Of a stretch of 64,000 nt of DNA, positions 2,198 through 49,090 are shown in pieces. Position numbers and translations under genes: made by a program. Positions within the stretch are counted from its first letter, which is position 1. Each line of letters opens with the position of its first letter. Location of the stretch: positions 434,001 to 498,000 of the forward strand of contig WSYJ01000178.1 of the NCBI GenBank assembly GCA_020186115.1, given 5' to 3'. The notes under the pieces are model-generated. The model searched no databases. It saw only the letters and a program-made list of their open reading frames with translations, and was not told the DNA's origin. This DNA is from Histomonas meleagridis. Taxonomy: Eukaryota > Parabasalia > Tritrichomonadida > Dientamoebidae.

Positions 2198-2235
2198 AAT
2201 AAAAAAGAAATTTTTAATTTTTAATTATTTTGTTA

Positions 2236-2246
2236 AACGGTCATTT
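2236..2246 (+). promoter_or_regulatory. AACGGTCATTT promoter-like element
   Basis: Lies in the 70-bp gap between the divergently transcribed LST8-like and RPP40-like genes, 21 bp before the RPP40-like ATG. The AACGG core fits a Myb-type site (YAACNG), and similar elements stand just upstream of many starts in this window. Promoter function is inferred from position and recurrence. Confidence 0.4.
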
Positions 2247-2267
2247 AATCATTTTTTTTTTTTCTAA

Positions 2268-3161: not shown

Positions 3162-3284
3162 ACAAATAAATAAATATATTATATATAAATAAATGAATAA
3201 AATCATATAAAAACATTTTAAATATTTTTTTGAACAAATGAATTTAAAAAGAATAAGGAAAATAATCAACAAAACAATTTTTAT

Positions 3285-3938: not shown

Positions 3939-4451
3939 TTTTTTCTTTTCTTTTTTTCTTTTAAGTTTTACGTTTATTATTCCCACTTTTCATAAACAAC
4001 AGAAAATAAATAATCAGCTGCAAAGAAAGTTCTATATATTGTTAATTATATTTCCCATATTAAAATAGTTACAAGTTATCTGATAGTTTAAAAACTATAA
4101 AATCTTTTTATTAAGCATTTTATTCTATAAAAGCAATTTTAAGTAATTAATTTTTCATTAATTATATTTATAAAAATAATATTAATATATAAAAATGGAG
4201 TATGAACACAATATTGCTTAAAAAAATTTTACCATAATATATTTGCATAAACAATTAATTTTATAAAGAATATAATGTCAATATCCTTTTATCTCTTAAA
4301 TATTCGACATCATTGGTGTGGATTCCTAATTACAATCATCAATATTTTATAATTTTATAACTGATTTTTGATTTAATATCGATATTCATTAAAAATTAAA
4401 AAATGAATGAAGGAATTTTGAATTTTATTCATCTCCTATTAGATTCTATGA
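3939..4451. other. Intergenic, no gene seen
   Basis: AT-rich spacer upstream of the GTPase gene and downstream of the BspA-like gene, both on the minus strand. It contains AAACGT about 25 bp before the GTPase ATG, a weak match to the upstream element seen elsewhere. Otherwise nothing is recognised. Confidence 0.55.
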
Positions 4452-10400: not shown

Positions 10401-12148
10401 AGAATCTGTACTAACAACTTCAGGTGCATCTATTGATTCCAAAACGGAACAATCTTTAAACATCCATTTCTTAAAATATGTTAAAGCATGTAATGAAATA
10501 CTTTTAAGATGTGAACAACCTTCGAAACAATTTGCAAAATTCCCACTTCCATAAACATTTCTAATTACGATTGTTACAAGTTTATTTAATTCAACATGAA
10601 CTAAAGCTGTTTTATAAAAAGCATCTGAAGAAATTGAAGTTAAAGAAGGCATTGATATTTCTGAAAGCTTAACACAATTTTTGAAACAATAATAACCAAT
10701 AGATGTTACATTTGAAAATTCTACTTTTTCAAGAGATTGACAATCCATAAAAGAACTTTCACCTATTGTTATAACAGAAATCATTTTAACATAAACTAAA
10801 TTATTATAACCAGAAAATGCATTATCTTCAATCTTATTAATTTTTTGTAATATAAGATTTGTTAAAACTGAACAACCTGAAAAAGCATTTGAACCTATTG
10901 TTTGAGCATTATCCATATTTAAATTTAATAATGAAGTACAATCTTTAAACATCCAAGCAGGAATACTTCTTGCTTTTTGAGCAGAAAAACTATTTAAATT
11001 ATTACAACCCATAAAATATCCACCAACATTATTAGTACCATCAATATTCCCTAATTCAAAATTTTCTAATTCATTAAATGTTAATTGTGTTACCCCAATA
11101 TTCCGAAACGCAGCATATGATATTGATTGAAGTATTGGAATTTCTACACGTGTTAAACTTTTACATCCATTAAAAGCATTATTCCCTATTGATATACAAA
11201 CTTTTAAAACGACTGTTTCTAAATTTATACAATTTTGGAAAGCAGATGATTCAATATTTTCTACTTTTAGAAAATTAATTTCTTTAATTGTTGGAATATC
11301 TTTAAATGAAGCAATTCCGATTGTCTTTAATTCAGGTAAATTTAATGTTGAAAGACTACAACCTGAAAAACATCCTTCTTCAATTATTTTAACTTTCTCT
11401 CCAATAATTGTATTGAGATTTGAACATCCATTAAAAGCATATTTACTAATTTTTTCAATTTGATTTAATTGAATATTTTCAAGAAAAGTACATGAATCAA
11501 AACAATAACCATCTTCACTCATTTCTAAAAGATTATTTAAAGTTAATGAAACGAAAGCACAACTTTTGAAACAATGATGAACCAATATAATTAATTAATG
11601 GTGCATTTAATATTGATAAGTGAATACAATCACTAAAAGCATAATCATTTATTGTATTAATTAATGGTAATTCAATCGAAGAAAGATCAGTATTTGAAAA
11701 TCCATAATTATCAATAATTTTTACATTTGGTAAAGTAATTGAAGCTAATGAAACACATGATTGAAAAGCTGAATCTTTTATATTTTCACAAGATGAAAAA
11801 TTTTATATTATAAAGAGCACTACATTCAGCAAAAGCTTTCTCACCAATAATTGTTGCACCATCAATGATTACACTTGATAATAAAACACATCCTTTCATT
11901 AAGTTATCACTTATTATCCCTGTGAATGAATCAATATGAATTTCAAGTGTTAATAATGATGTAAATGAATTTGAAATTATCAAATTTAATGGAAAATCTC
12001 CTGATTTAACATTTAAAGATGTAATAGTATCAATCCCAGCACCATATGAATTAAGGATATCATCAAATGTATCACCTGTGTATTCTTGCTGGTTAACTTC
12101 AATCACCATAATGGAAGATATTCCAGAAAGCAGAATAACAAAAATCAT
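4452..12148 (-). CDS. BspA-like leucine-rich-repeat surface protein (left-arm copy, 5 frameshifts)
   Basis: One gene of 7,697 bp broken by five single-base insertions (near 11785, 11575, 9630, 9205 and 7248; four lie in homopolymers). Without them it has 2,564 codons, the same as the other copy. The N-terminus (MIFVILLSGISSIMVIEV) is a signal peptide. The body is BspA/TpLRR-type repeats (LRR_5) of the form AFxxCxxLxxI. The first half holds five super-repeats of ~163 aa, each with a VYGxGN-like and a WMF(K/R)(D/N)C segment. The second half has blocks closed by a YD...DD...WCG module. A Cys-rich stalk (PECSCPEQ), one membrane span and a KKKKER tail end the protein, so it is a type I surface protein. 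BspA-like proteins are expanded in trichomonads and implicated in adhesion. AACGACC at 12161 lies just upstream. Confidence 0.9.
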
Positions 12149-12763
12149 ATGAAATCAAAATGGTCGTTTATAACAAATTTTTGATAAATTTTGTCTGTTA
12201 TAATGAAAGAAAATCACGACGACAATATAACAAAGATTGAAAAGAACTTAAGTTGTATCATAAATATTTTTGAATTTAATATCAAATTATGTTTAACATT
12301 CTCTGTTCATATCCAAGAAATATTTTAGTTTGTTCAAATTCATTACATTGATTAAAATTATGATGAATATGATAAATTTTTTTATTATTAAACCATCAGG
12401 ATAAATTGAAGAAATTCAATATTAAATTCTTGAGTTATAAAAAATATTACACCAACATCAATGAATGCGAATTCTTACAAAAGAGTCAACTTTATTATGA
12501 TTAATATTCATTCTTGTTATGTATTAATTTCCATATTATTATATTATTTAAGGATATAAAATGGTTTATATATTCCGATTGTATTCTATCTATATTTGAA
12601 TATATAAATTTGCAATCTTTATTAAATGAAAAGTCTTTCATCAATACAAAATGAATATTATAAAGAAAATGAGTTTCAAAATCTATTACATTTATCTGAG
12701 ATTAAATTTAATTATATTATTTATTAATATATATCCTATTAAAGAATATACAACAATTCTATT
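12149..12763. other. BspA upstream region and arm/spacer junction
   Basis: The first 232 bp belong to the left arm (to 12380) and hold an AACGACCATTTT element (minus strand, ending at 12168) 13 bp before the BspA ATG. The single-copy spacer begins at 12381. No gene is seen between there and the end of the peptidase homologue at 12764. Confidence 0.6.
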
Positions 12764-18884: not shown

Positions 18885-19917
18885 CACTACTATATTAATC
18901 ATATTATTTTATAAAGATATAAAAAAATTGTTTTGTGTTGACAAATGTCATTCAGTTTAACAATTTTCAACATTTAAATTTCATAAATTTTTGTTGGTGT
19001 TTCTTATTGTTTTCTTGTTATTCATATTTTACTCATATACATTATTAAGTAATGAAGATATTTTTATTTAAGGATGCGCCTTAAATATTAAGTTTTCTTT
19101 AAAGCTCATCATAACATGTTTCATTATTCTTTCTTATTTAAATCATTTATTTCTAATAATTTCTTTGGCCGTCTTTTTTTCCATATTTCTCTTCAAACTC
19201 TCGATGCCAAATATAGTATATCCACATTTTATGTTACAGCACAGAATACCTCGATTTTTATGGAATAAGATGTTCTACCTGATAATTTGTCTGTGGTTAG
19301 TGTGCAAAGATTTCTATGTATTTCCCTTAATTAAATAATATACTCGTCTACCCACTGTTGTTAATGTTCTTTTTTAAATATCAGGGTTCAAACGGAATCG
19401 CCATTTCTCACAACATTGCTATTCTACCAGGTGCTTGTTTTAAAATTTATCATATTCATCATAATTTTAATCAATGTAATGAATTTGAACAAACTAAAAT
19501 ATTTCTTGGATATGAACAGAGAATGTTAAACATAATTTGATATTAAATTCAAAAATATTTATGATACAACTTAAGCAAATCGAAGTTAAAATCATTTTCT
19601 TTCGGCCACATATTTTGAATGTAGAATTTTAAGAAAATTTGTTTGAATTTAAGTGGTCACTTGTCAAAACGGATTTTGTTGTCAAATATCATTCGTTCGA
19701 TTCAAAAATTGTGCGAAATACGTTATAAAAGGTTTTGGATTGAATACAGAATTCTATTAAACCGTGGCTTTGAATATTTGAACGATTTGAAATGCTCAAT
19801 GATTAATATTGTTCAAATTTTCTTTTCAATCTTTGTTATATTGTCGTCGTGATTTTCTTTCATTATAACAGACAAAATTTATCAAAAATTTGTTATAAAC
19901 GACCATTTTGATTTCAT
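18885..19917. other. Spacer/right-arm junction and BspA upstream region
   Basis: Single-copy DNA to 19441 with no gene seen, then right-arm DNA. A short open frame crosses the junction, but only its second half is shared with the left arm, so it is not supported as a gene. 19577-19819 (243 bp) is absent from the left arm. The last 98 bp match the left BspA upstream region, including the AACGACC element. Confidence 0.5.
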
Positions 19918-22900
19918 ATGATTTTTGTTATTCTGCTTTCTGGAATATCTTCCATTATGGTGATTGAAGTTAACCAGCAAGAATACACAGGTGATACATT
20001 TGATGATATCCTTAATTCATATGGTGCTGGGATTGATACTATTACATCTTTAAATGTTAAATCAGGAGATTTTCCATTAAATTTGATAATTTCAAATTCA
20101 TTTACATCATTATTAACACTTGAAATTCATATTGATTCATTCACAGGGATAATAAGTGATAACTTAATGAAAGGATGTGTTTTATTATCAAGTGTAATCA
20201 TTGATGGTGCAACAATTATTGGTGAGAAAGCTTTTGCTGAATGTAGTGCTCTTTATAATATAAAATTTTCATCTTGTGAACATATAAAAGATTCAGCTTT
20301 TCAATCATGTGTTTCATTAGCTTCAATTACTTTACCAAATGTAAAAATTATTGATAATTATGGATTTTCAAATACTGATCTTTCTTCGATTGAATTACCA
20401 TTAATTAATACAATAAATGATTATGCTTTTAGTGATTGTATTCACTTATCAATATTAAATGCACCATTAATTAATTATATTGGTTCATATTGTTTCAAAA
20501 GTTGTGCTTTCGTTTCATTAACTTTAAATAATCTTTTAGAAATGAGTGAAGATGGTTATTGTTTTGATTCATGTACTTTTCTTGAAAATATTCAATTAAA
20601 TCAAATTGAAAAAATTAGTAAATATGCTTTTAATGGATGTTCAAATCTCAATACAATTATTGGAGAGAAAGTTAAAATAATTGAAGAAGGATGTTTTTCA
20701 GGTTGTAGTCTTTCAACATTAAATTTACCTGAATTAAAGACAATCGGAATTGCTTCATTTAAAGATATTCCAACAATTAAAGAAATTAATTTTCTAAAAG
20801 TAGAAAATATTGAATCATCTGCTTTCCAAAATTGTATAAATTTAGAAACAGTCGTTTTTAAAAGTTTGTATATCAATAGGGAATAATGCTTTTAATGGAT
20901 GTAAAAGTTTAACACGTGTAGAAATTCCAATACTTCAATCAATATCATATGCTGCGTTTCGGAATATTGGGGTAACACAATTAACATTTAATGAATTAGA
21001 AAATTTTGAATTAGGGAATATTGATGGTACTAATAATGTTGGTGGATATTTTATGGGTTGTAATAATTTAAATAGTTTTTCTGCTCAAAAAAGCAAGAAG
21101 TATTCCTGCTTGGATGTTTAAAGATTGTACTTCATTAGTAAATTTAAATATGGATAATGCTCAAACAATAGGTTCAAATGCTTTTTCAGGTTGTTCAGTT
21201 TTAACAAATCTTATATTACAAAAAAATTAATAAGATTGAAGATAATGCTTTTTCTGGTTATAATAATTAAGTTTATGTTAAAATGATTTCTGTTACAACA
21301 ATAGGTGAAAGTTCTTTTATGGATTGTCAATCTCCTGAAAAAAGTAGAATTTTCAAATGTAACATCTATTGGTTATTATTGTTTCAAAAATTGTGTTAAG
21401 CTTTCAGAAATATCAATGCCTTCTTTAACTTCAATTTCTTCAGATGCTTTTTATAAAACAGCTTTAGTTCATGTTGAATTAAATAAACTTGTAACAATCG
21501 TAATTAGAAATGTTTATGGAAGTGGGAATTTTGCAAATTGTTTCGAAGGTTGTTCACATCTTAAAAGTATTTCATTACATGCTTTAACATATTTTAAGAA
21601 ATGGATGTTTAAAGATTGTTCCGTTTTGGAATCAATAGATGCACCTGAAGTTGTTAGTACAGATTCTTCAACATTTTCTGGTTGTTCTTCATTATGTAAT
21701 ATTACATTCCCAAAATTACAAACAATTGATGAATCTGCTTTTGCAGGATGTCAAGGGATTCAAAATATTACTTTAGATTCTGTTATTACTATAGGTGTTG
21801 CTGCTTTTGAAGGATGTGTGAATTTAATTAGTATTGATTTAATAAATTGTATTACTATTAACTCAAAAGGATTTAGTGGTTGTTCAAAACTTACGTTAAT
21901 TAAAATTCCATCTGTACAAACAATTAATGATCGTGCTTTTCAATATACATCTATAGAAAATGTAATATTACAAAATGTAATTTCATTTTGGAACATATAA
22001 TGTTTATGGTGAAGGAAATGTTGGATCACAATTTGAAGGTTGTGAATTACTTAAATCAATATCAATGCCATTAGTGAATAATTTAAGAAAATGGATGTTT
22101 AAAAATTGTTATTCTTTGATCGATATTAATGCACCAAATGTTACAGTCATAGATGAAAAAACATTTACAGGTTGTACAAGTTATTCAAATATAGATTTCC
22201 CAATATTAAATTATATTGGAAATTCTGCATTTGCTAATTTACCAAATTTAACAATTATTAATTCACCTGTTCAAACAATCGCACAAAATGCTTTTGAAGG
22301 TTGTAATAATTTAATAACAGTTATATTACCAAATTGTGTAACTATTGATAATTATGCATTTTATAATTGTATTCAACTTTCATCAATTAATGCACCACTT
22401 GTTACTAAACTTGGAACTGATGCATTTTATAAATGTGTTTTTATAGAAGTTACATTTAATAATGTTATTGAACTTTCTACAAGAAGTGTTTATGGTCAAG
22501 GAAATGTTGGATGTCAATTTGATAGATGTTCTGTACTTAAAAAGATTACAATGAAAAATACGCCTATTATTAGAAAATGGATGTTCAGAGATTGTACTCA
22601 ACTTATTTATATCGATACACCTGTTGTAACAACTATTGATGGAAGTGCTTTTGTTCGATGTCATTCATATACTAATGTTACATTTCCAATAGTTAATTAT
22701 ATTGGTGAATATGCATTTAGTGAAATTTCATCATTAACAACAATTAGTTTATCTTCTCTGATAACAATTGATAATTATGCATTTAATTCTTGTCCAAAAT
22801 TAACTTCCGTTGAAATTATTGAATGTACAAATATTGGAAATTATGCATTTGCTAATTGTATACAACTTAAAAATATTATTGCACCAAAATTAAATTCAAT

Positions 22901-25900
22901 TGGAACTGATGCATTTTATAAATGTGTTTTTATAGAAGTTACATTTAATAATGTTATTGAACTTTCTACAAGAAGTGTTTATGGTCAAGGAAATGTTGGA
23001 TGTCAATTTGATGGATGTTCTGTTCTTCAAAAAGTTTCATTCGAAAATGTACCAATTTTAAGGAAATGGATGTTTAGAGATTGTATTCAATTAATTGAAG
23101 TAAATGCAAAACATTGTACTTCAATTGATGAATATTGTTTTTCGAATTGTCAAAAATTAACAATTTTAGAACTTGATTCATGTACTTATATGGGAACGAA
23201 TGCATTTTCTGATTGTAATAATATAAAAACAATTTCACTTGGTTATCAATCAATTGAATTTGGTGTTATTCCATCCCCAAAAATATTAGAAAATGTTTTC
23301 TTCCCAAATGCATTAAATGTTCCTGAAAATGGATTTTTAGATTTTACTGCAATGAAAAAATGTAAATTACCATTAGTTACGAAACTTGGTTCTTTTGCAT
23401 TTAGTGGTTGTATTAGCTTAGTTGAACTCGAAATACCAAAAATTCAAGAATTTCAAGGCGATTATATTTTTTCAAATTGTGAAAATATTGAATCACTTTC
23501 CTTAAAATTTTTAGTTACAGTTGATTCAACATCAGCAAATATATTTAAAGGATGTAGAGGATTAAAAACAATATCAATGCCAGATCGACCTCCTTTAACA
23601 TTTCATAGAGATACATTTTTATCTCTTACATGTGATATTGTAATTCCACCTGAATCAATTAATATATATGATAATGATATTAATGTTGAAGGTGATACAG
23701 CTGGAGATAATCATTGGTGTGGTTTAGAATTAAAACATTATGAATGGATTAATATTAGTGCTGATAATTCTTTTGGAATTGGTATTACATTATATGATGC
23801 ATGTCTTGCTACAGGAAAAGTTACTTCAGAAATTAATCAATTAACAATATTTAATGGTCATTTAACAAATGAAGTTCTAAATACTTTCAAAGATACTTTT
23901 GTCACTTTAACAGATTTAATAATTGAATCTTCTGCTTCAATTGAAAATCAAATAATTCCTGATAATTTCTTAAAAAATCATCAAAAAATTCAAAATATAA
24001 ATATTAAATGTGGAATTAGATTAATTGGAACAAGTTCTTTTGAAGGATGTATAAATCTTCAATCTATAAATATACCAAATACAAAAGAATTAAGTTCACG
24101 TTGTTTTTTATGGTCCAACATCACTTGAAATCATTTCATTTCCATTTGTTGATACAATTACAGGTTCACATTTCTTTTCTAATAATTTAAATCTTAAAAA
24201 TATAGAATTACCAAATTTGACAAAAGTTAATGACATTGGTTATATTTCGGAAAATTCACCAAATATTAAATCAATTCAATTATCTGGTACACCACCAATA
24301 GTTCAAGGTTCATTTTTATTTGATAGTAATCCTTTACTTATTGGAATAACTAATGAAGAAGCTATTCAATATGATAAAGCAGATGGAATTGATAATAATA
24401 TGAAATTTTATTCACTTATTTTATCTTATACAATAATATCATGTTTAATAGATGGTGAAATAGTTAATGGTTTAACATTAAAAAGTATTATTAATGAAGA
24501 TTCTAAAATTGTTGAAATAATTAAAGGAAAAATATCAGGTTCAGATTTCCCACTTCCTTCTTCTATTACTTCTTTAACGATTCCATCAAATGTTATTATT
24601 GAAGAAATTCCTTCAAATGCTATGTCAAATAATATAAACTTGAAATATATTACTATTTTATATGATGGAACTTATTCAATTGGTGAAGAAGCATTTTGTG
24701 GTTGTTTATCTTTAGAAAATGTAATAATTACAGCAACTTCAATGTATTCTTCAGCTTTTAAAGATTGTATTAAACTTAAAACAATCGTATTAAATAAGTT
24801 ACAAAATATTATTGGTAATAATCATTTTAATAATTGTAATGAATTATTATCAATTTCATTAAAAGAATTGAAAACTGTACCAAGTGATGCTAATAGTATT
24901 TTTTCTGGTTGTCATAAACTTAAAACTTTAAATTTCCCTTCAATTCCACCAAATACTTTTAATAAAAATGTATTTGTTGGTCTTGAAGAACAATTATCAT
25001 TAATTTTACCATCTGAAAATGATTATTTAACATATGATAATAATAATTTAGTAGAAGATGATAAAGAAAATGATGGACTTTGGTGTGGACTTATTATACC
25101 TTCTGTTTTAATAGGAATTAAAATAAATGGACAAAATAAAATAATTACAGGAATGAAACTTTCTGATTGTATATTATCATCAGGTATTTCTGAATTATCT
25201 ATTAATACATTAGAAATTATTAAAGGGATTTTAACAATAAATTCTATTCTTGAAAGTATTACCAAATTATCTTTTCTTGAAAATTTAATTATATCTAAAA
25301 CAGTAACTTTAAAAGATGAATTAACTGATTCGATTTTTAGTGGGTTACCTCTTATTTCAATAACATTACCAGGAATTACTAAAATTCCTCAAAATTGTTT
25401 TAAAGATTGTATTCAACTTAAAAATGTTATAATTGAAGATGCTAAAATACTTTGTGATTCTGCTTTTAGTGGTTGTAAAAGTATTGAATCAATTAGTTTA
25501 AATATTATTACATTAGAAGGAGATAATCATTTTTCAGGTTGTACTTCATTAACTTCGATTAGTCTTATAAATTTACAAAATGTTAATTCTGATTCATGTA
25601 ATATATTTAAAGATTGTCCTTTAAATTCAATATATTTACCAAATATTCCACCAAAAACATTTAATAAAGATACATTTAAAGGAAAAGATATTATAATTCT
25701 TGGGTTAAAAAATGATGAATTACGTTTATATGATTCAAATATTGATGTTGAAGATGATTTAAGTGATGATTTGAAATGGTGTGGAATTGGTTTAATTCAA
25801 TTATATATTACAGTATCAATAAATGATGGAGAATCATTAAATAGTGATACTTTAATTAATGCAGCAAAAATTAGTGGTATTACAGAAGTTAAAAAAGTAG

Positions 25901-27617
25901 AAATACAAAAAAGGGTTAATTAAACAATCACATCTAAATGAATTACATACAGAATTCCCATTGTTAACAGAAATTTCGATATTAGAATCTGCTGTTTTGG
26001 AATCTTCTATAATTGAATCTGAACAATTTAAAGATATAAAAACATTAACTAAAGTTAAAATTATGAAAAGTGTTTCTTTAATGAAAGAATGTTTTAGTGG
26101 TTGTACTTTATTACAATATATTGAATTTAAAGAAACAAAAGTTATTAATTTCGGCGCATTTTTAGGTTGTAATTTATTAAGTACAATTATTATTCCAGGA
26201 TGTTTACAATTAAATGGTGATCAAATATTTTCAGGATGCAATAATTTAAGAGAAATTGATTTATCTTCATTAGAAAATGTTGATAACACTGCATCATTAA
26301 TATTTCAAGATTGTAATCAATTAATTCGAATAAAATTACCTTCAAAACAACCAACAACATTTCATAAAGATTCATTTATAAATTGTCCAAATATTCAATT
26401 AGAATTACCTAATAAAGATGATTATCTTATTTATGATGATCAATCAAATGTAGTGGATGATATTAAAGAAGATGAAAAATGGTGTGGAATTAATATCGAT
26501 TCAAATCTTTTTACCACCAATGAAAATATTTAAGATTAATGGAATCGAATATAAAAGTCGAAAACTTTCATTAAATTTATACACAAATGATAACGTTGAA
26601 ACATTAGAACTTATTGGAGGTCTTATAGAAGCTAATGATTTAAGAGATGTATTAAAAGATTGTTTAACATTAATTAAATTTGAAGCAAATATTGCAACAA
26701 TTTCTGAAATACAAAGTGGAACATTTACTAATTGTATTTCTTTGACTGAAATTATTATTCATGGTGAAGTTACATTTGCTTATGGTGTATTACAAAATCT
26801 TCCAAATTTAACAAAATTAGTTTTAGATTTACAACAAACTATGAGGTCAGATGATCTAATAGGTGATTATAATTTACAAGAAGTTTCGATCCCTCTTTTA
26901 GTTAGTATTCCAAATAATTTATTTGCGAATTTAACAAAATTAAAATCAATTAATGTTGAATATGCTAATATTATGTCATCTAATTGTTTTATGAATTGTT
27001 CTTCTTTATTATCAATTTCATTACCAAAAATATCAATAATGATAGGAGATAATCATTTTAATGGTTGTACAAATTTAGAATCAATTGATTTATCCTCAAT
27101 TTCGACAGTGAATCAAGATTCTTCAAATATATTTAACAATTGTATAAAATTAAAAGAATTAAAACTTGGAATAAAACCACCAACAACATTTAATGAAAAT
27201 ATTTTTGTTAATGCAGGAAAATTACCTATAATTAAATTACCAATTGAAGCAGCTTGGAATAATTATCTTGAACAATGTACAATTAATCCTGAAAATAATC
27301 ATTATTTATGGTATGGATTTGATAATGGAATTATTTATCAAGAACCTACAGAAATTACAATTCCTGAATGTTCATGTCCAGAACAAAGTGAAATTAGTTG
27401 TCCAGAATATACTGAAATATCGTGTCAAGAATGTTCATGCTCAGAAGAACCTGAATCAAGTTATGCACCAATTACTGTGGAAGAAGGTCACTCTTCTGCA
27501 GTACTTGCTGTTTCAATCGTAGTTTGTATTATTGGTGCGTCTACTCTAACTGTATTGGTGATGTTTATAATATACAAGAAAAAAAAGGAACGATTTTCCA
27601 ATAAAATTGATCCATGA
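19918..27617 (+). CDS. BspA-like leucine-rich-repeat surface protein (right-arm copy, 8 frameshifts)
   Basis: Mirror copy of the gene at 4452-12148, 7,700 bp from ATG to TGA. Eight single-base insertions, near 20862, 21086, 21228, 21340, 21988, 24107, 25908 and 26510, all in short homopolymers, break the frame; a T-to-A change near 21269 adds a TAA. Removing the insertions leaves 7,692 bp, exactly the length of the corrected left copy. The signal peptide, LRR_5 body, five VYGxGN/WMF super-repeats, YD...WCG modules, Cys-rich stalk, membrane span and basic tail are all present. None of its insertions is shared with the left copy, which argues for sequencing error over decay. Confidence 0.88.
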
Positions 27618-28134
27618 TCATAGAATCTAATAGGAGATGAATAAAATTCAAAATTCCTTCATTCATTTTTAATTTTTAATGAATATCGATATTAAATCAA
27701 AAATCAGTTATAAAATTATAAAATATTGATGATTGTAATTAGGAATCCACACCAATGATGTCGAATATTTAAGAGATAAAAGGATATTGACATTATATTC
27801 TTTATAAAATTAATTGTTTATGCAAATATATTATGGTAAAAAATTTTTTTTAAGCAATATTGTGTTCATACTCCATTTTTATATATTAATATTATTTTTT
27901 ATAAATATAATTAATGAAAAATTAATTACTTAAAATTGCTTTTTATAGAATAAAATGCTTAATAAAAAGATTTTATAGTTTTTAAACTATCAGATAACTT
28001 GTAACTATTTTAATATGGGAAATATAATTAACAATATATAGAACTTTCTTTGCAGCTGATTATTTATTTTCTGTTGTTTATGAAAAGTGGGAATAATAAA
28101 CGTAAAACTTAAAAGAAAAAAAGAAAAGAAAAAA
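27618..28134. other. Intergenic, no gene seen
   Basis: Mirror of 3939-4451, between the BspA-like gene and the GTPase gene, both on the plus strand. Nothing is recognised apart from AAACGT before the GTPase start. Confidence 0.5.
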
Positions 28135-28788
28135 ATGAAAGAAAGTTATCTTGGTTATGATTTTAAAATTGTTTTCGTTGGGAATAGTGGGGTTGGGAAA
28201 ACTTCAGTTATTCAAAAATATTTAAATAATGAATTTCCTTCAACACATATTCCTTCGTTAAGTTCTGAATTTTATGAAATTAATTATAATTTAGAAAACA
28301 CACAAGAATCAGTTCATTTATTTCTATGGGATACACCAGGTCTTGAAAAATATCATTTTCTTAGTGAAGATGTTTTTGAAGAAGTTAATATTTTTTTTTT
28401 TTTTTATTCAGTTGAAGATCGTTCATCATTTGAAAGTATTCCAGAATGGTTAGAAAAGGTTAAAATGTATTCACCTAATACTGAAGTTATTCTAGTTGAA
28501 AACAAAACAGATTTAATTGAAAATAGTTTAATTAAAGTTGAAGAATCGACGCGAATGTCGAAGCAACTCAATGCGCCATTATTTCGAATCAGTGTTCCTG
28601 AAACACTTAATCTTCAAACACTTTTTCGTTATATATCGATTAAAGTTCAAAACAAATATCTTTCGACATTAAATATGTTACCAAATGAATCGAATTTATT
28701 CTTTGTTCATGATATTGATGAAGAAATAGAAGAATATCTTAATAATGACAATAATGAAACATCGAATAATAATTGTTTAATTTATTAA
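28135..28788 (+). CDS. Ras-superfamily small GTPase with CaaX end (right-arm copy)
   Basis: Same 217-aa protein as at 3285-3938, with no indel. Differences: a run of 15 T at 28391-28405 replaces G and C of the other copy and changes Val-Leu to Phe-Phe in the strand before the G4 box, and a T-to-C change gives His for Tyr in the switch I region. P-loop GNSGVGKT, WDTPG, NKTD and terminal CLIY are retained. The Phe-Phe change coincides with the homopolymer and may not be real. Confidence 0.8.
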   Translation: MKESYLGYDFKIVFVGNSGVGKTSVIQKYLNNEFPSTHIPSLSSEFYEINYNLENTQESVHLFLWDTPGLEKYHFLSEDVFEEVNIFFFFYSVEDRSSFESIPEWLEKVKMYSPNTEVILVENKTDLIENSLIKVEESTRMSKQLNAPLFRISVPETLNLQTLFRYISIKVQNKYLSTLNMLPNESNLFFVHDIDEEIEEYLNNDNNETSNNNCLIY

Positions 28789-28914
28789 ATAAAAAATTGT
28801 TTTGTTGATTATTTTCCTTATTCTTTTTAAATTCATTTGTTCAAAAAAAATATTTAAAAATGTTTTTATATGATTTTATTCATTTATTTATATATAATAT
28901 ATTTATTTATTTGT

Positions 28915-29810
28915 TTATTCTTCTTGTAAATATTCAACTGTTTGAATTTCGATAGAGAATGGAAATTCGTCACCATACAAAATCATTTCTGTTCCTCCTC
29001 CAATGCCTTTCATCGTAAGTTTCTTGCCTAAAAATGATGAAACAACATCTTTCATATCCCAAATGCTAATGATGCAATACGATTCTTCTCCAAGACTCAT
29101 CAGAAATTCTTCTATTTCTGAAACATTAAGAAATCCTTTGATGATAATTTTAGAAAGATTTGATGTTATAGTTATAAATTCCTTATAAAAACTTTCCTCA
29201 AGGTTAGAAATAAACTCTTTGATTTCTTCTTGTTTAATGTTTTTCTTTAAAAAAAAAAAAAAAAATATTAAAATTAAAATTAGAAATATTTTTCCATCCT
29301 TCAATGTTCGGTGTGGAAATTTCTAGTTTTTCAATATATTTCTCATAAATATTTAAATTATTACTATAAAGAATCCCTTCGATATTTTCAACAATTTGAA
29401 GACGTTGAATGCGTTCGCGTTCTGTCGCTTGAATGGAAATTAAATATTTGTCTTCATATTTTTGACCTTGAAGACCAAAACGTTGATATGTACTTTGATT
29501 TATTAAAAAAAGAATATTTCCTTTATAAATATATAATCCATTCCCATTATGAATAGGTGTTAATGAAACAAAAATAATGTTTCCTTCAATAATATCATTT
29601 AATACATTTTCATCTTTTTAAAAATTTTGGATTTATTAAAACTTGATAATAATGATCAGAAAAATGAGGAAATGTTGGTGGTTGCTTATTCGTGATAATT
29701 TCAAGACAATGAATAAATGGATGTTTTTGAAGAATACTTTTCAAATGTTCTTTTTGATTCATTGATGATCGAATTTCTCGAAATGATTGACTTTTAATAC
29801 TTGGGATCAT
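28915..29810 (-). CDS. RPP40: RPP40-like RNase P/MRP subunit (right-arm copy, 2 frameshifts)
   Basis: Mirror copy of the intact gene at 2268-3161. It is 896 bp rather than 894 because of one extra T near 29615 and one extra base at the 17-A run (29249-29265), which also replaces the mixed sequence that encodes Glu-Ile-Phe-Glu in the intact copy. Both flanks keep the RPP40-like segments. Start at ATG 29810. The breaks look like consensus errors, since the intact copy shows the true frame. Confidence 0.6.
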
Positions 29811-29880
29811 TTAGAAAAAAAAAAAATGATTAAATGACCGTTTAACAAAATAATTAAAAATTAAAAATTTCTTTTTTATT

Positions 29881-30786
29881 ATGAATTATACACCTTATTT
29901 AATCTCAGCAGGATTAGATTTAAGTATTACATTTACAAGTATTTTTGAATGGGAAGAAGACCCAAATATTCGTCCAGTCACAATTCTTAATTCACAAGTT
30001 AATCGAATTTTAGTTCATGAAGATAAGAAATTTTTAACAGCCACAAATCCTTAAGTTAATTTACACAATATTATTAGTAATGAAAAATTTGTTCAATTTA
30101 CAGGACATACAGGAAATGTTACAGATTTAGTTTTTTTAGGAAATAATTTTTATTCATGTAGTGAAGATCGAACATTTAAATTTTGGGATCCATTACAAAG
30201 CAATCGACCACAACATTCAATTAGCACTGAAACATCACTTAATAATATTTTACTTCATCCTAATGAAAATTATCTTTGTTAAGTGATGAAAAAGGATTTA
30301 TTGAAATGTACGACAATCGGAATTATCAATTAATAAATAAATATCAAGTTCGACAATGTCCAATTCGAAGTCTTTCCATGACGCGAAATGGGAATAAATT
30401 TTTAGTTGGACTTCAAAATGGAGAAATTTCTGTTTTGAATTTTGATTCAGAATTGAATGAATTTCGCCAAGAAATTAATTTTCAAGCGCATCAAGATGTA
30501 ATTCTTCGAAGTAAGATTTCACCAGATGAAAAATATTTTGTTACAACATCAGCAGATTCAACATCGAAAATTTATGATTTTATAAATTATAAAGAAAAAT
30601 TTCATCTTGAAGATCCCCGTCAAATGAAATGGATTTGGGATGTTGCCATTACCAAAGACAGCAAATATATTATCACAGGAGGCACATAATTATCGAACGT
30701 GGGAAGCAGAGACAGGGAAAAAAATATATTCGAATGGTAGTTCACATAAAAAAGGTATTCTTTCGCTTGCACTCTTTGAATATTAA
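29881..30786 (+). pseudogene. LST8: LST8-like WD40 protein, broken (right-arm copy)
   Basis: Mirror of 1291-2197. It shares the in-frame TAA (near 30052) and the +1 shift after GGCACA near 30688, and has one further lesion: near 30280 a T is missing and another is changed, placing TAA in frame. WD-repeat signatures GHTGNVTDLVF, RTFKFWD and MKWIWDVA remain. It is divergent from the RPP40-like gene with 70 bp between. Confidence 0.7.
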
Positions 30787-30900
30787 AATATTTATATATA
30801 TATGAGTAAAAATATTTTTGTTGGATTATATTTATATATTTTACTATAAATAACACTAAAACAATTTCAAATTTCATTTTAAGTCGCACGTTAAGTAAAT

Positions 30901-30912
30901 AACGTTCTCATT
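30901..30912 (+). promoter_or_regulatory. AACGTTCTCATT promoter-like element
   Basis: 38 bp before the PHD-gene ATG. The left arm reads CACGTTCTCATT at the same place, one of the few clustered substitutions between the arms. AACGTTCTCATT recurs next to the start of the ubiquitin-like gene at 54939. Confidence 0.35.
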
Positions 30913-30949
30913 CCACATAACTTTTATTTCATAATTGAACACATCAATA

Positions 30950-31568
30950 ATGAATGATCCTCTTCAACGACTTTCAGAACTTTCAAGACTTGCATCGCCA
31001 TCGCATCGAAATTTTCATAAAAAAATCAAAGAAGAAGAAAATGCACCAATATTTCGTTGTCCGTGTGGTCAACCAACGAATTCAGATGAAATGATTTTTT
31101 GTTCAGTTTGTCATTGTCAATTTCATATTGAATGTATTGAGGATGAAACTGATAATCCGACGTGGGTTTGTCCATATTGTTTACAAGAATCATCACAAGC
31201 ACTTTTAAACAAAGGGATTGATTTATCAATATTAAGTCAAGAAATAGGGAATAACAAAATGACGCAAGTTATTGCTAATTCATATCAAGATAGCGCCAAC
31301 ATCAGCGAATTATTCGAAAAATCATCAGCATGGGTTTCGGCGATTATTTCACGCGATGATGTTTATTTCAATCTTGAAGACATTGTCCGAAGTAGTGTTG
31401 ATGAAGAAGGCGGAATGCAACTCCCTTTCAGAACTTTCAGAAGAACGAAATTTGTTGAAAGATCTTTCCAACATTCTTCAAGAACTTTCTGAAGAGACGA
31501 AAGAAATGAACACGCCAATTCTAGGCTATTTGTCGGAACAAATTGATATGTATCATCAACCTAAATAA
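30950..31568 (+). CDS. PHD-finger protein (right-arm copy, 1 frameshift)
   Basis: Mirror of 507-1124. The zinc finger (CPCG, CSVC, FHIEC, WVCPYC) is intact. One extra C near 31425 (three C instead of two) shifts the frame and replaces the last ~50 residues; the true C-terminal sequence continues in the next frame to TAA 31566-31568. Probably a consensus error. Confidence 0.78.
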
Positions 31569-31883
31569 ATGTTTCTTTATGTTTTTAATTTTTTTTTTTT
31601 TTTATAATTTTAAAACATTTATTTTATATATCATATAATACACAAGTATAGAGTTGGGAAGAATGTTGTGCAATTATTGTTTTTAAGTGGGTTATTTTTG
31701 AAGTTTATAGATAAGTGGAATGTTTATGATACCATTTTCACGAGAAGATCAGAAATTATTTGTGGACTTAATGGCAAACTATAAGTTTGGATAATATCCT
31801 TGGTTTAAATTGCAATATAACATCAACTGGAATGCTTGCTAACATTAAATAAGAAAAAACCTAAATGGTTGCTTTATTAATTT
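31569..31883. other. Intergenic, no gene seen
   Basis: Mirror of 205-506, with a 15-T run (31589-31603) absent from the other arm. It lies between convergent gene ends. Nothing is recognised. Confidence 0.5.
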
Positions 31884-32210
31884 TTAAGGATTTGGATCCT
31901 TTTCATATTGGGCTGAAACGTGTGGGACTAATTTTTGGAATTCATCATAATTATCATCAAAATATTTATACATCAAAAATTTTTGTCTTTTATAAGCACG
32001 ATCAACAGGCTTTCCAGATGCTTTAGAGAATTTTTCAGCCAAAGAAATCATCTTCTTTAGTGTAATATCATCTTTTATAATTGATTTAATCAACTTTTCT
32101 CCATTACTTCCTATAAAATTAAAATTACCCAAAATAGCTTGAGTTCTTTCTTTCTCGGAAACATATCTTCGACTTGGTAAATTTTTTTTTACACCATATT
32201 TACTTTCCAT
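31884..32210 (-). CDS. Hypothetical 108-aa basic protein (complete copy)
   Basis: ATG 32210 to TAA. Small, charged and helical, with SRRYVSEKERTQAIL near the N-terminus and FSKASGKPVDRAYKRQKF in the second half. No signal peptide, membrane span or known motif, and I do not recognise the family. It straddles the last position (32087) that can be compared with the left arm. The partial left copy at 1-204 preserves the same C-terminus, which supports it as coding. Confidence 0.55.
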   Translation of the reverse strand: MESKYGVKKNLPSRRYVSEKERTQAILGNFNFIGSNGEKLIKSIIKDDITLKKMISLAEKFSKASGKPVDRAYKRQKFLMYKYFDDNYDEFQKLVPHVSAQYEKDPNP

Positions 32211-43243: not shown

Positions 43244-46200
43244 TTAAGTATTGGTGTTATTTCCTGCTTTCTCAAGAAGTAATTCGATAATTTCAGTGTG
43301 GCCATGTTTAGATGCATATGTAATAGCTGTTTCAAATAAATTATATAATTTCCAAATGTTATATTGAAAGATTAAATAATTGAAGTGAATCCAAAATGAA
43401 ATACATAAACATTTTTTGTGTTAATATCAATTCCTTCTTGTTCAAGAAGTAGTTTGACTAATTTTATGGAACCTTTTTCAGATACATACATAAGTGCTGT
43501 TTTAAAATATTTCAATAATTTTCAAATATTATTTTTAAATGTTAAATTATTAATATAGACATTAAGCAAAACAAATATATATCTTTAGCATTAATATCAA
43601 TTCCTTCTTGTTCGATAAGTAATTTTACTATTTCGATGTTATCATCTTTAGATGCAAGCATGAGTGCTGTTTTAAAATATTTCAATAATTTCCAAGTATA
43701 ATTTCGAAATAAGAATTTATTAAATTAGAAATTAAATAAAACAAATAAATAGTTTTAGCATTGATATCAATTCCTTCTTGTTTGAGTAATAATTTTACTA
43801 TTTTTGTATTCCCTTTTTCAGTTGCAATTGAAAGCGATGTTTGATAAAATTTTAAGAATTTCCATATGTTTCTTTGAGATATCAAATTATTGAGATAAAT
43901 TTCAAATAAAACAATCAAAAATTTCTAATGTTAACATCAATTCCTTTTTGTTTAAGAAGCATTTTAATTATTTCTATGAAACTATTTATAGTTGCTTTCA
44001 TAAGTGCTGTTTCAAATAATATAAATGATTTCCAAATATTATTTTGAAATATAAAATTATTAAAATAAATTTTAAATAAAACAAATAAATAGTTTTAGCA
44101 TTGATATCAATTCCTTCTTGTTCTAGAAGTAATTTTACTATTTCTATGTTATCTTTTTCAGTTGCTTTCATAAGTGCTGTTTCAAATAATATAAATGATT
44201 TCCAAATATTATTTTGAAATATAAAATTATTAAAATAAATTTTAAATAAAACAAATAAATAGTTTTAGCATTAATATCAATTCCTTCTTGTTCTAGAAGT
44301 AATTTTACTATTTCTATGTTATCTTTTTCAGTTGCTTTCATAAGTGCTGTTTCAAATAATATAAATGATTTCCAAATATTATTTTGAAATATAAAATTAT
44401 TAAAATAAATTTTAAATAAAACAAATAAATAGTTTTAGCATTAATATCAATTCCTTCTTGTTCTAGAAGTAATTTTACTATTTCTATATGACCATTTAAA
44501 GATGCTTTCATAAGTGCTGTTTCAAATAATATAAACAATTTCCAAATATTATTTTGAAATATAAAATTATTAAAATAAATTTTAAATAAAACAAATAAAT
44601 AGTTTTAGCATTGATATCAATTCCTTCTTGTTCTAGAAGTAATTTTACTATTTCTGTGTGACCTTTTTCAGATGCTTTCATAAGTGCTGTTTCAAATAAT
44701 TTAAATAATTTCCAAATATTATATTTAAATATTAAATTATTAAAATAAATTCTATATAATACAAATAAATGTCTTTAGCATTAATATCAATTCCTTTTTG
44801 TTCAAGAAGTAATTTAACTATTTCTATATGACCATTTCCAGATGCATCCAGAAATGCATTATTATATAGCATAAATAATTTCCAATTATTATTTTAAAAT
44901 TCGTAATTAATAAAATAAATCCAAAAAGATACAAATAAAATCCATCTGAATTAATATCTTTTCCTTTTCTAAGTTCAAGAATTAATTTGACAATTTCTGT
45001 CTTACCATATGTTGCTGCTCGATTAAATGCTTTACTAAATAATTTGATAAGTTTCCATATATTAATTTGAGACATCGCTATATATTAATGTATTATTTGG
45101 TTATTTATATTAAATCCTTTATATGTTAGAAATAATTTTATGATATTGAATCGAAGAAAATCGGTTGCACTGGTAAAAGCAAATAATTATAATAAATATT
45201 AAACAAAACAAATAAAGACTTATATCATTAATTTCAATTCCTTCTTGTTCTAGAAGCAATTTAACAATTTCAATATGGCCATTTTTAGATGCCAATATAA
45301 GTGCTGTTCTAAATAATTTATATAATTTCCAAATATTATTTTGAATTACCAAATTATTAAAATAAATATAAAATAAAACAAATAAATAGTTTTAATATTA
45401 ATATCAATTCCTTCTTGTTCTAGAAGTAATTTAACTATTTTTGTATCACCTTTTTCAGCTGCAAGCATTAATAATGTTTTAATTAATTTAAATAAATTCC
45501 AAATGTTATAATGAAAAATCGATTAAGCTTAAAAAACAAACAAAAAAAGTTAAAAACATCACTTGCATTTAAGTTCACAAATCCTCCTTCAATAAGTGAT
45601 AATATTATATCCTTTTCCAATATATCTTTTTTATATGCAAAAACAAGTGATGCTTTAAGTATAATGAATAATTTCCAAAAATCATTTTGAAATATCAAAT
45701 CATAAGAATTTATATTAATTAAAAAAATAAAAAATATTTTCCATCATAAATATTATTTTTTCCGAGTAGTAATTTTACTATTTCTATATGACCATTTTCA
45801 GATGCTTTCATAAGTGCTGTTCTAAATAATTTAAATAATTTCCAAATATTATTTTGAATTACCAAATTATTAAAATAAATATTAAATAAAACAAATAAAT
45901 ATCTTTAGCATTAATATCAATTCCTTCTTGTTCTAGAAGTAATTTAACTATTTTTGTATGGCCATTTGCAGACGCTAAAATAAGTGCTGTTCTAAATAAT
46001 TTAAATAATTTCCAAATATTATTTTGAATTACCAAATTATTAAAATAAATATTAAATAAAACAAATAAATATCTTTAGCATTAATATCAATTCCTTTTTG
46101 TTCAAGAAGTAATTTAACTATTTTTGTATGGCCATTTGCAGACGCTAAAATAAGTGCTGTCCAAAATAATTTAAATAATTTCCAAATATTATTTTGAATT

Positions 46201-47929
46201 ACCAAATTATTAAAATAAATATTAAATAAAACAAATAAATATCTTTAGCATTAATATCAATTCCTTCTTGTTCTAGAAGTAATTTTACTATTTCTATGTT
46301 ATCTTTTTCAGATGCTTTCATAAGTGCTGTTTCAAATAATATAAATGATTTCCAAATATTATTTTGAAATATAAAATTATTAAAATAAATTTTAAATAAA
46401 ACAAATAAATATCTTTAGCATTAATATCAATTTCTTTTTGTTCAAGAAGTAATTTAACTATTTCTATATGACCATTTAAAGATGCATACATAAGTGCTGT
46501 TCGAAATAATTTAAATAATTTTCAAATATTGTTTTGAAATATAAATTTCAAATAAAACAAAAAAATATCTTTAGCATTAATTTCAATTCCTTCTTGTTCA
46601 AGAAGTAATTTAACTATTTCTGTATGACCTTTTTCAGAAGCAAACATAAGTTCGGTTCGAAATATTTTAAACAATTTCCAAATACTATTTTGATATATAA
46701 AATTAACACAGAAAACCTTTTCATAAAATACGAAAAAACATCAACAGCATTGATATCAATGTATTTTGTTTCAAGAATTATTTTAAATATTGCACCAATT
46801 CCTTTTTCATAACCATAATTAAGTTCAACATCAAACAAATTGAATAATTTTCAAATATTTTTTGTAAATCCAAAAATACTGATATAAAAATTAAATGAAA
46901 TACATAAATTTTTTTATATTTATTATTATTTTTGTAATCTAGAAGCATATTAACAATATCCATGTGATTATTTTCACATGCATAAATAAGCGCAGTCCAA
47001 AATAATTTTAATATATTCCAAAAATGAATTTAAAATATCAAAATATTATAATAAATATTGTAAAAAAGAAATTTATTGATTTAAAATTTATATCAATTCC
47101 TTTGAATTCAAGAAGTAATTTGGCTATTTCAGTATAACCATTAATGGATGCTAAAATAAGTGATGTAAAAAGTATTTTGATTAAACCCCAAAAATGAATT
47201 TTAATTATGAAAAATATTAAATAAACCTTAAACAAAGTAAAATAAAATCATGTGGATTAATGTCTATTTTTTCATGATGAAGAAGTAACCTAACAATTTC
47301 AATATCATTTTTTTGAACAGCGAGTATTAATGCTGTACAAAATAGTATAAAAAAACGCCAAACATCATGAAAAAATTTTAAACAACTTAAACAAAAATTA
47401 AATTCAACAAATAAAAATTAGAAGCATTGATGTTAATTCTCTTATAGTTAAGAAGTAATTTAAGGATCTTAATATATCTGTTCTTTACAGCATCCATAAG
47501 TGCTGTCCAAAATAAGATGAATAAGTTCCAAATTCTAAAAACAATTACCAAATATTTAAAATCAAAATTAAATTGGATAAACAAAGATTCACAGCATTAA
47601 CATTAATTCTTTTTTGTTGAAGAAGTAACTTAACTATTTTAATATGATTATTATCCACTGCCATTAAAAATGGTGTATAAAATTTGCTGAGTAAATTCCA
47701 AATATATATTTAAAATTTGAAATGATAAAAACAATTTTTCTTTTTAATAAAAAAATATTTTTAGCGTTTATTTTTATTCTTTCTTGCTCAAGAAGTAATT
47801 TAACTATATCAAAATAACCTTTACTACATGCAACAATTAATGGTGTATAAAAACATTAATATAAATTTTATTTCATACACAGAAACACCAATATTTTAAA
47901 ACATATTTTAGTAAATATTATAAAACATA
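43244..47929 (-). repeat. Phased ankyrin array: 28 ankyrin segments at ~170-bp spacing
   Basis: Twenty-eight ~29-residue ankyrin segments (pattern TALM.AS..G..EIVKLLLEQEGIDINAK) follow the one at the end of the 47918-49090 frame. Unit starts (minus strand) include 47846, 47676, 47506, 47336, 47166, 46330, 46160, 45990, 44690, 44520, 44350, 44180, 44010, 43840, 43670, 43500 and 43330. Of the 28 start-to-start distances, most are exactly 170 bp; others are 164, 167, 173 and 179, all equal to 2 modulo 3, with exceptions 156, 133 and 141. Each segment is open, but the ~83-nt linker shifts the frame, and linkers contain stops. The last segment ends in a clean TAA at 43244-43246. Whether linkers are removed from RNA is unknown. 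Confidence 0.85.
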
Positions 47930-49090
47930 TTTAACATTTACATCAGTTCCTTCTTTTTCAAGAAGTAATTTAACAATTTCAATATTTCCTGATCTTGTTG
48001 CTGATATTAAAGTTTCTTTAGGAATTTTATTTCCTAGAGAAAAATGTCTAAAAAGAAATATATTACCATTTTCGACTGCTTCAATTATTAATTTTTCAAC
48101 ATTTAATTTTTTCGTTTCTAAAAATGATAAAATTTCATAATTATCATATGTAATACATTTCTTTCCTAATTCAGTAAAATCTTCTTCTTTATTGTATTCA
48201 CTTTCGAAAAAATAATAAAATATTTCATTCCGATGAAATTCTATTGCTGTTTCTATTGATCCATTAAAGTTAGAATGATTCTGTTCACAATAATAAAGAA
48301 TTTCAAGATTTCCACCTGCTACAGCATATATTCCTGTATTTGTTAAATCAACATTATTTAAAATCAAGTATTTGAAGCATTTAATCGATCCAAAGAATGC
48401 TGCATAATCAACAAGTGAAAGTTTTTCTTTATTAATAAATGAATATCTTTCATATAATGATGGCTCTATGTTTTGCTTAAAATCAAAATTTGGTTCTGAT
48501 GATATTTCATGAAGTTTTTCTACATCATCATTTCGTATTGCTTTAATTGCATCCGAAGGATTAGATCCTTCATGAATGAGTTGCTTATGAAGCTTCCAAT
48601 CATCCTTTTTCAGCTCTTCAATATTATCAAAAAATTGTTTATGAAAAGGAATATTATTTGTTGAATCTTTAAATGCATTAATTTCTTCATCTGTTTTATA
48701 ATGAATAAAATATAAAGTTTTAATGTTTCGTACAACTTTAGGATTGACCATTTTTTGTTCAATCATATATCCTAAAAGATAATTAGATTCCTGAGTATTT
48801 AAATGTAAAAGTAAATTTGTAAAAATGTTAATTATTTTATTATAATATTTGGCTGATAATGTTTTAAGAAATTGAACAATATTATAGTCATTTTTATTTA
48901 AAATAAAAGCTGAATATATCAATCTACTTAAAATCAACATCGAAGAATAAGGATAATCAGAATCTAATAATTTTTCTATTGATTTAACAGATTCAGAAAT
49001 ATTACTTTCTCTAAAATCAAATATTGTATTTCGTATAATTTTGAGATATTGAATATATTTTGTTTCTCTCGTTCCTGTTGATTCTTTCAT
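47918..49090 (-). CDS. DUF3447-type ankyrin protein, N-terminal part of the array gene
   Basis: 390 codons from ATG 49090. Residues ~1-200 are helical and typical of the trichomonad DUF3447 ankyrin family. Residues ~230-330 match its signature (LSLVDYAAFFGSIKCFKYL, then AGGNLEILYYCE, then EFHRNEIFYYF). A first canonical ankyrin repeat (TRSGNIEIVKLLLEKEG) follows, ending DVNVK just before the frame closes at 47918. The next ankyrin segment, TPLIVACSKGYFDIVKLLL, starts 72 bp beyond that stop in another frame, and 27 more follow to 43244. The natural product is probably much longer than 390 aa if the linkers are bypassed. Confidence 0.8.
   Translation of the reverse strand: MKESTGTRETKYIQYLKIIRNTIFDFRESNISESVKSIEKLLDSDYPYSSMLILSRLIYSAFILNKNDYNIVQFLKTLSAKYYNKIINIFTNLLLHLNTQESNYLLGYMIEQKMVNPKVVRNIKTLYFIHYKTDEEINAFKDSTNNIPFHKQFFDNIEELKKDDWKLHKQLIHEGSNPSDAIKAIRNDDVEKLHEISSEPNFDFKQNIEPSLYERYSFINKEKLSLVDYAAFFGSIKCFKYLILNNVDLTNTGIYAVAGGNLEILYYCEQNHSNFNGSIETAIEFHRNEIFYYFFESEYNKEEDFTELGKKCITYDNYEILSFLETKKLNVEKLIIEAVENGNIFLFRHFSLGNKIPKETLISATRSGNIEIVKLLLEKEGTDVNVKYVL

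Follow-up and report, generated by a model that had tools for sequence, protein, structure and literature searches.

Ankyrin arrays of Histomonas meleagridis interrupted by serial 17-nt elements, a putative second class of ultra-short intervening sequence

A 64,000-nt stretch of the genome of the poultry parasite Histomonas meleagridis (G000:C112:434001-498000; hereafter the window) carries on its minus strand an ankyrin gene, in which a 390-aa open reading frame (ORF; 47918-49090) with DUF3447/Ank Pfam matches heads, at its 3' side, an array of ankyrin segments spaced about 170 nt apart. Read from its sequence, the linker between successive segments is neither one intron nor junk, but a series of AT-rich 17-nt elements with one codon between neighbours. 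This 17+3 architecture recurs in arrays on 22 contigs of the 43.28 Mb genome searched. The interposed codons are under coding constraint, variants are scarcer in the elements than at synonymous sites, and canonical splice signals are lacking. We consider it likely that the elements are ultra-short intervening sequences of a second class, which are removed from the RNA of a hypervariable ankyrin family. The elements would be absent from the translated message, their removal occurring at the RNA level and efficiently. With the inserts left out, the remaining codons spell a normal and highly variable ankyrin protein, which makes it probable that the cell has some means of excising the inserts.

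The usual linker is 83 nt long and has the form codon-17-codon-17-codon-17-codon-17-codon, the four elements being ATTTATTTGTTTTATTT, ATTTATTTTAATAATTT, ATTTCAAAATAATATTT and AATTATTTAAATTATTT. They share the AT-rich consensus ATTT-N9-ATTT and mostly run from A to T, while the five linker codons provide the ankyrin turn D-x-x-G-x, placed before T-A-L. An example unit on the minus strand illustrates the arrangement: the 29-codon ankyrin segment TALMKASEKGHTEIVKLLLEQEGIDINAK (44604-44690) is followed by loop codon 30, ACT (44601-44603), element E1 ATTTATTTGTTTTATTT (44584-44600), codon 31, AAA (44581-44583), E2 ATTTATTTTAATAATTT (44564-44580), codon 32, TAT (44561-44563), E3 ATTTCAAAATAATATTT (44544-44560), codon 33, GGA (44541-44543), which supplies the ankyrin glycine, E4 AATTGTTTATATTATTT (44524-44540), and codon 34, GAA (44521-44523), which adjoins the ACA GCA CTT of the next unit. 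A TTTGGAA core had been noted in these linkers by the original prediction, made from the sequence of the window; the core is real, and is decoded here as the TTT that ends element 3, the glycine codon GGA and the A that starts element 4. Linkers with TTTGAAA in its place are read as a Gly to Glu change. Membership of the ankyrin family is indicated by the N-terminal Pfam Ank/DUF3447 matches, by a TPLH-like start and an LLL helix, by a segment that matches designed ankyrin repeat proteins (DARPins) and by the turn codons, and the 33-34 residue period appears only when the elements are left uncounted.

A model-free, fixed-offset test took the triplets at offsets 0, 20, 40, 60 and 80 of the 142 unique linkers of 83 nt (204 with duplicates counted). 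Stops are absent from these 710 triplets, whereas other registers contain up to 120. Triplet diversity peaks at offsets 20, 40 and 80 (Simpson.81,.84 and.88), and registers without overlap to offsets 0, 20, 40 and 80 lie at.16-.50. Of the 142 linkers, 117 open with GAT or AAT, and 116 have GGA at offset 60. In order, the loop residues are mostly D/N, K/N/D/E, Y/D/N, G and E/N/K/Q/W, with T-A-L next, which is the ankyrin turn D-x-x-G-x-T-P-L. Uninterrupted ankyrin repeats at other loci of the same genome share this turn, with G in 8 and D in 6 of 9 distinct repeats (10 rows).

The boundary between codon and element follows from the 633 codons that are flanked by elements on both sides. After TA, the third base is T in 72 of 72 cases, and after TG it is A in none of 12 (G 9, C 2, T 1), compared with A 339, T 195, G 9 and C 6 elsewhere (Fisher 5e-29 for TA and 1e-5 for TG). 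This third-base stop avoidance indicates that the third base belongs to the codon, that the intervening piece is 17 nt, and that its boundary is fixed to the base; a register shifted one base to the left is thereby ruled out. Two other candidates were rejected. A single 68-nt intron with its ends in the TTT direct repeat was dropped, the interposed codons being coding, and a 3' splice site after ACAG, inside ACA GCA, is ruled out by TSL and TPL repeats without the AG in otherwise intact arrays.

For the gene in the window, segment boundaries were set by hand and the parser accepted 17-nt elements only, so that the length of 17 is there an assumption. Parsed in this way, all 28 linkers resolve into 108 elements and 140 loop codons, none of the codons being a stop, and glycine occupies the second-last loop codon in 23 of them. 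The same parser found a mean of 14.8 stops (7-23) and 0.3 correctly placed glycines (0-2) in shuffled linkers of the same composition, and 11.9 stops (minimum 5) and 0.32 glycines (maximum 2) in AT-rich stretches of the window. The 13 most diverged window linkers alone contain 0 stops and 10 glycines, versus 5.8 stops (minimum 1) and 0.16 glycines (maximum 3) in controls. A freer parse of the window contig that allowed 16-18 nt returned 97 elements of 17 nt, 2 of 18 and 1 of 16. No tandem elements were seen elsewhere in the window at a score of at least 9 with a spacing of 20 or 23, and an Rfam 15 scan of the window at gathering scores gave 0 matches.

A search of the genome for arrays with the same linker, proposed along with the original prediction, was productive. 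We collected 319 linkers in 28 contig-and-strand groups on the 22 contigs, each located between two segments with a hidden Markov model score of at least 12; the loop codons had no role in this choice. When parsed with 16-18-nt elements, 280 linkers are clean. Their 211 unique sequences comprise 1059 loop codons, none of them a stop, and the last loop codon alone has 0 stops in 211 where 22.2 are expected from the column frequencies. Element length is 17 nt in 1189 of 1237 cases, 18 nt in 40 and 16 nt in 8. Contig C72 accounts for 19 of the 40 18-nt elements, mostly through one additional base in an A- or T-run, and homopolymer errors may be behind part of the 16- and 18-nt elements. A three-element parse fits 31 of the 35 unique 66-nt linkers. 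The family is large: a 501-bp query finds at least 212 genome places in about 35 clusters, searches with the N-terminal domain find at least 93-98 places each, and the nine arrays read to their end have a stop soon after the last segment. Elements inside the N-terminal domain itself were also considered, and the gaps in the three split matches checked proved to be open coding sequence.

A second family (loci L067, L072, L073 and L075) consists of tandem ATATGTTTTAATAATTT plus one codon. Its linkers measure 43, 63, 83, 103, 123, 143, 203 or 303 nt and contain 2 to 15 elements between open segments, so that, with the elements removed, the turns would be about 3 to 16 residues long. Genome-wide, the tandem pattern of this family is matched 1992 times, against 3 times when reversed; for the element-4 pattern the two counts are 1356 and 0. 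Among the first 100 listed element-4 matches, 0 stops occur at the codon versus 6.7 expected. The first 100 listed matches of the second family have 1 stop at the codon versus 15.3 expected, and in them the third base after TA is T in all 15 cases and that after TG is A in 1 of 4; in both cases the first 100 are those on the lowest contig numbers (C1-C8 for the second family) and not a random sample.

Reading straight through the linkers was predicted to fail, and it does: only 33 of the 319 remain in frame and free of in-frame stops, and 163 have stops in each of the three frames. The frame is changed in 233 of the 319 and an in-frame stop is present in 181, as would be expected if each linker were one conventional or unusual intron of 65-85 nt. 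Such an intron would, however, discard codons 31-33, which spell D-x-x-G-x and avoid stops, and we give this explanation next to no probability. The original claim that a linker of ~83 nt shifts the frame is right, while the linker as a single non-coding block has to be abandoned in view of the five turn codons inside. Similarly, an unusual intron class agrees with our reading in kind but not in unit, which is usually four (2-15 in other arrays) 17-nt inserts and not one intron of 65-85 nt.

The elements might alternatively be kept in the mRNA, with ribosomes hopping each 17-nt gap. Short bypassed inserts of 27-55 nt, known as byps, occur in yeast mitochondria, and bypassing would account for the absent splice signals described below. 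Where bypassing has been described, ribosomes take off from a codon that matches the landing triplet, but in Histomonas the codon before an element and the last 3 nt of that element are the same in only 16 of 806 cases, and about 108 hops would be needed for the window gene; we therefore regard ribosomal bypass as rather improbable. Excision of the elements from DNA, in some cells or at some life stage, appears very improbable. It would be scarless and exact in the manner of the internal eliminated sequences of ciliates, and we know of no such excision in parabasalids, a point on which no search was made. Element-free copies of the arrays were not recognised among the matches listed, most of the listed places not having been read, and a protein search for element-free relatives returned 2 matches, one of them the query itself.

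The variation between repeats was studied in 183 matched units from 21 arrays, counting distinct variants per site. The elements have 0.27 variants per site, synonymous sites 0.40, framework nonsynonymous sites 0.35 and the exposed codons 4, 5, 8, 9, 11 and 12 as many as 1.58. In the loop, nonsynonymous variants per site amount to 1.41, 1.91, 0.31 and 2.09 for codons 31, 32, 33 (Gly) and 34, respectively, the rate at codons 31, 32 and 34 being 5-8 times that of the elements. The elements themselves seem constrained, since they carry fewer variants than synonymous sites. Stops number 2 versus 81.7 stop sites in the segments plus codon 30, and 0 versus 25.7 in codons 31-34. Of 345 rows of 87 nt, 24 contain a stop: 10 are from contig C72, another 10 are read as last segments that end in the stop of the gene itself, and the remaining 4 belong to neither group.

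Several observations weigh against a translated product and the excision it would require. Overall pairwise dN/dS over the segments is 0.78-1.17. Taken by itself this range would point to an absence of constraint, and it is close to the value of ~1 that the original prediction had taken as the mark of an amplified pseudogene, yet stops are nearly absent. Framework nonsynonymous relative to synonymous variation is 0.80, indicating weak constraint; using the mutation spectrum derived from the elements the framework ratio is 0.56 (334 observed, 598 expected), an estimate that skipped 3 groups with a stop in the base-wise consensus and judged bases singly. The plain dN/dS near 1 can be explained by hypervariable exposed codons being mixed with weakly to moderately constrained framework codons. 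The unique linkers as a whole hold 12 stops in 1350 codons, all of them within irregular parses, and one stop (TGA, C1:800155-800182) occurs at the codon among the first 100 listed matches of the second family, where 15.3 are expected. Units are duplicated within arrays, so that counts are not independent and p-values overstate. In the array at C72:128447-136440 (L021, L025 and L030), 6 segments are frameshifted in A-runs, some being listed in two frames, through either early decay or sequencing error. Decayed-looking arrays with stops and truncated segments are found at L037 (about 1890-3282, minus strand), L055 (about 2300-2900, plus strand) and L075 (0-600, minus strand). P0018, an annotated H. 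meleagridis relative that matches the genome at 100% over 428 aa (C5:182605), fits none of the standard linker classes in the relatives test described below, with one weak, odd offset.

The array may alternatively be dead or archival, its pattern left over from an earlier coding constraint and nothing translated past the N-terminal ORF. This explanation draws on the dN/dS near 1, on the decayed-looking arrays at L037, L055 and part of L075, and on P0018 (428 aa), which has no array in its protein, its downstream DNA not having been read. Elements E1-E4 are, however, position-specific and shared across arrays, which suggests that they predate the loop-codon variation; because this variation is stop-free and arose with the inserts in place, a dead array is disfavoured for the window gene. 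Further evidence comes from five diverged upstream units, whose linkers are all still 83 nt and which give, at the consensus offsets, the loops NKQGY, NNGGW, NNKGC, DKHGF and SNDGW. Their 20 elements average 11.9/17 identity to the consensus, with 102 of 340 sites changed, and still the glycine is kept (GGA, GGC or GGG), twice via synonymous changes (GGC in NNKGC and GGG in DKHGF). We consider a dead array unlikely, and the recent amplification of one, as had been suggested, probably does not describe the window gene, even though some sister arrays look dead. Such copies need not be functional, and would serve as natural controls for the intact arrays.

The signals expected of a spliced sequence, tested on 268 distinct elements, are lacking. 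GT starts 30 elements and AG ends 2, with GT..AG in 1 and U12-type AT..AC ends in 1; the branch-point motif CTAAC is found in 0 of the 268, CTAAY in 2 and TTAAT in 56, and 186 elements end in TTT. The absence of standard trichomonad intron signals noted by the original prediction is thus confirmed. Of 519 distinct codon-element-codon strings, 348 fold at 0 kcal/mol (mean -0.41). The ends of whole 83-nt linkers are paired in 4 of 50 cases versus 413 of 2000 dinucleotide shuffles, and these linkers fold no better than the shuffles (mean z +0.47; 50 of the 142 sampled in both cases), while one consensus linker folded alone reached -9.2 kcal/mol with its ends near each other. Without GT-AG, CTAAC or pairing ends, no known machinery is predicted to act on the elements. 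The host has a spliceosome, as judged from the RNA genes of U2 (80.5 bits, over the cut-off, with a GTAGTA box) and U6 (43.7 bits for a cut-off of 44, with an ACAGAGA box); a search with the U1 model gave no match. Separately, candidate canonical parabasalid introns of 71 nt (GTATGT...CTAACACACAG; motif match only) were seen at L059 and L065 (minus strand, about 1440), two loci that had been picked for the CTAACACACAG motif. Searched alone, CTAACACACAG has 11 matches, compared with 4 when the pattern is reversed. For GTATGT...ACTAACACACAG, allowing a gap of 10-40, there are 0, the 71-nt candidates exceeding the reach of this pattern.

Database relatives were examined by asking whether the tail of a protein fits Gly plus T-A/P/S-L at some linker offset; five tails were tried, and many other relatives have ORFs that end before the test can apply. 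The tails of P0001, P0015 and P0016 each fit at a single offset, namely 83, 89 and 66 (among 45, 71 and 71 tested), with the 89 of P0015 becoming 86 if the next E is taken as anchor. The 24-aa tail of P0007 has no compatible offset and is too short for the 83-nt class. The best scored genome match of P0016 reaches 53% near full length and 57% over a part, and that of P0004 60%; with no near-identical match among the scored genome places, P0004 and P0016 are, by sequence, products of a relative and not of this assembly.

Under removal from RNA, which we favour, each repeat would be interrupted within its ankyrin turn by usually four 17-nt elements, placed between codons 30 and 31, 31 and 32, 32 and 33, and 33 and 34. 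The elements would be removed, most likely from RNA, one by one, joining the single codons into D-x-x-G-x-T-A-L and yielding a long ankyrin protein with repeats of about 34 residues and hypervariable exposed positions. The remover could be a spliceosome that tolerates relaxed ends and treats the elements as degenerate ultra-short introns, or a different pathway based on a nuclease and a ligase, and we make no choice between these. That the elements form a new class, AT-rich, 17 nt long, devoid of the usual splice signals, present in thousands and excised singly from nuclear mRNA by a putative machine, is a proposition to which we give even chances.

If true, the elements would turn the binding turn into single-codon cassettes, as 17+3 = 20 nt units can be duplicated or lost with the frame of the product unbroken, thereby offering a route to diversify turn sequence and length. 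The published H. meleagridis genome is described as 43 Mb with about 28.7% GC, and as intron-poor, with 573 and 638 predicted introns in two strains and introns in 5.2-5.7% of genes, at most one each (PMC8529796). This reportedly intron-poor parasite would then carry thousands of ultra-short non-GT-AG intervening sequences with one-codon pieces between them. Such sequences would call into question ideas of how small an intron or exon can be, or else point to a removal pathway in a nuclear genome that does not involve the spliceosome. A large set of natural, hypervariable ankyrin binders would come to light as well, each of which gene prediction would truncate at the first element. No description of such inserts was found in the open-licence literature on Histomonas introns and splicing, Histomonas ankyrins and parabasalid mini-introns, represented mostly by titles and the opening lines of abstracts.

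The layout of the window gene agrees largely with what had been described for it. After the DUF3447 N-terminal frame 28 further ankyrin segments follow, ending in a TAA (43246-43244), and all 29 segments are open with the hand-set boundaries; the degenerate one is open at 45168-45094, stops appearing in the register first tried (start 45137). As stated originally, 25 of the 28 unit lengths are 2 modulo 3, the exceptions being 156, 139 and 135 nt. The N-terminal coding part (47930-49090, minus strand, as are all features of the gene) is uninterrupted, the mechanical ORF extending to 47918 and so into the first linker. This linker (47847-47929) has 4 elements and 5 codons with the atypical loop TKGKY, and is the least certain parse; the linker after 45653 is also atypical. 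Seven diverged units (46657-47846), of which the first five are the diverged upstream units described above, start at 47846, 47676, 47506, 47336, 47166, 46996 and 46829, and are followed by the 156-nt unit (46501-46656), in which element 2 is read as reduced from 17 to 3 nt with the loop frame kept (DEIYER). The 69-nt linker of this unit is 14 nt shorter than usual, and the length changes that had been placed mostly in the ankyrin part are hence not all found there. Next come four near-consensus units (45821-46500; starts 46500, 46330, 46160 and 45990) and six units (44861-45820), several of them strongly diverged and several with boundaries set by hand, which start at 45820, 45653, 45477, 45307, 45168 and 45033 and contain 4, 4, 4, 2, 3 and 4 elements per linker, respectively. 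Nine units with four elements each (43331-44860; starts 44860 to 43500) lead to the last ankyrin segment with the terminal TAA (43244-43330). The original interpretation is thus partly supported: it is correct in that the ankyrin parts stay coding and that an unusual intervening class is the best reading, and wrong on the unit that intervenes. Outside the ankyrin gene, the window contains a 12.25-kb inverted duplication (1-12246 and 19820-32087) with 99.4% identity. It includes long ORFs rich in repeats and one that resembles a small GTPase, among others, and several ORFs are long in one copy and broken in the other; this could be a recent duplication or an assembly effect.

A comparison with known systems reveals partial likenesses. 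The best Protein Data Bank matches of the 29-aa segment are DARPin and consensus ankyrins, and the hypervariable codons 31, 32, 34, 5, 8 and 9 resemble positions that are randomised in DARPins; the Histomonas repeats, in contrast, are natural, tandem and split between codons by 17-nt elements. Byps are likewise short inserts in coding sequence with many per gene, whereas the Histomonas elements are nuclear, 17 nt long and do not follow the take-off/landing rule. The nonconventional introns reported for euglenids and diplonemids resemble the elements in having no conserved GT-AG borders and in coexisting with a spliceosome (PMC12621601, PMC6221363, PMC4770533), and for those of euglenids these reports give the removal mechanism as unknown. 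Their ends base-pair, which neither single Histomonas elements nor whole linkers do. Closer in lineage, the parabasalid Trichomonas vaginalis has type A and B introns, type B measuring merely 23-25 nt; all 63 described are GT/AG, their 5' motif is extended, and their branch site and 3' motif are fused (PMC12316389), whereas CTAAC occurs in none of the 268 elements. The nearest in size are the spliceosomal introns of Stentor coeruleus, reported as 15-16 nt, AU-rich, of nearly fixed length and with a weak branch-point consensus (PMC9505925). The Histomonas elements share the ultra-short, near-fixed length, the AT-richness and the weak branch-point consensus, and differ in that most Stentor introns are GU...AG, compared with 1 GT..AG in 268 here, and in the one-codon pieces between them. 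The 15-16-nt Stentor introns indicate that such lengths are within reach of a spliceosome, although their ends are GU-AG (PMC9505925).

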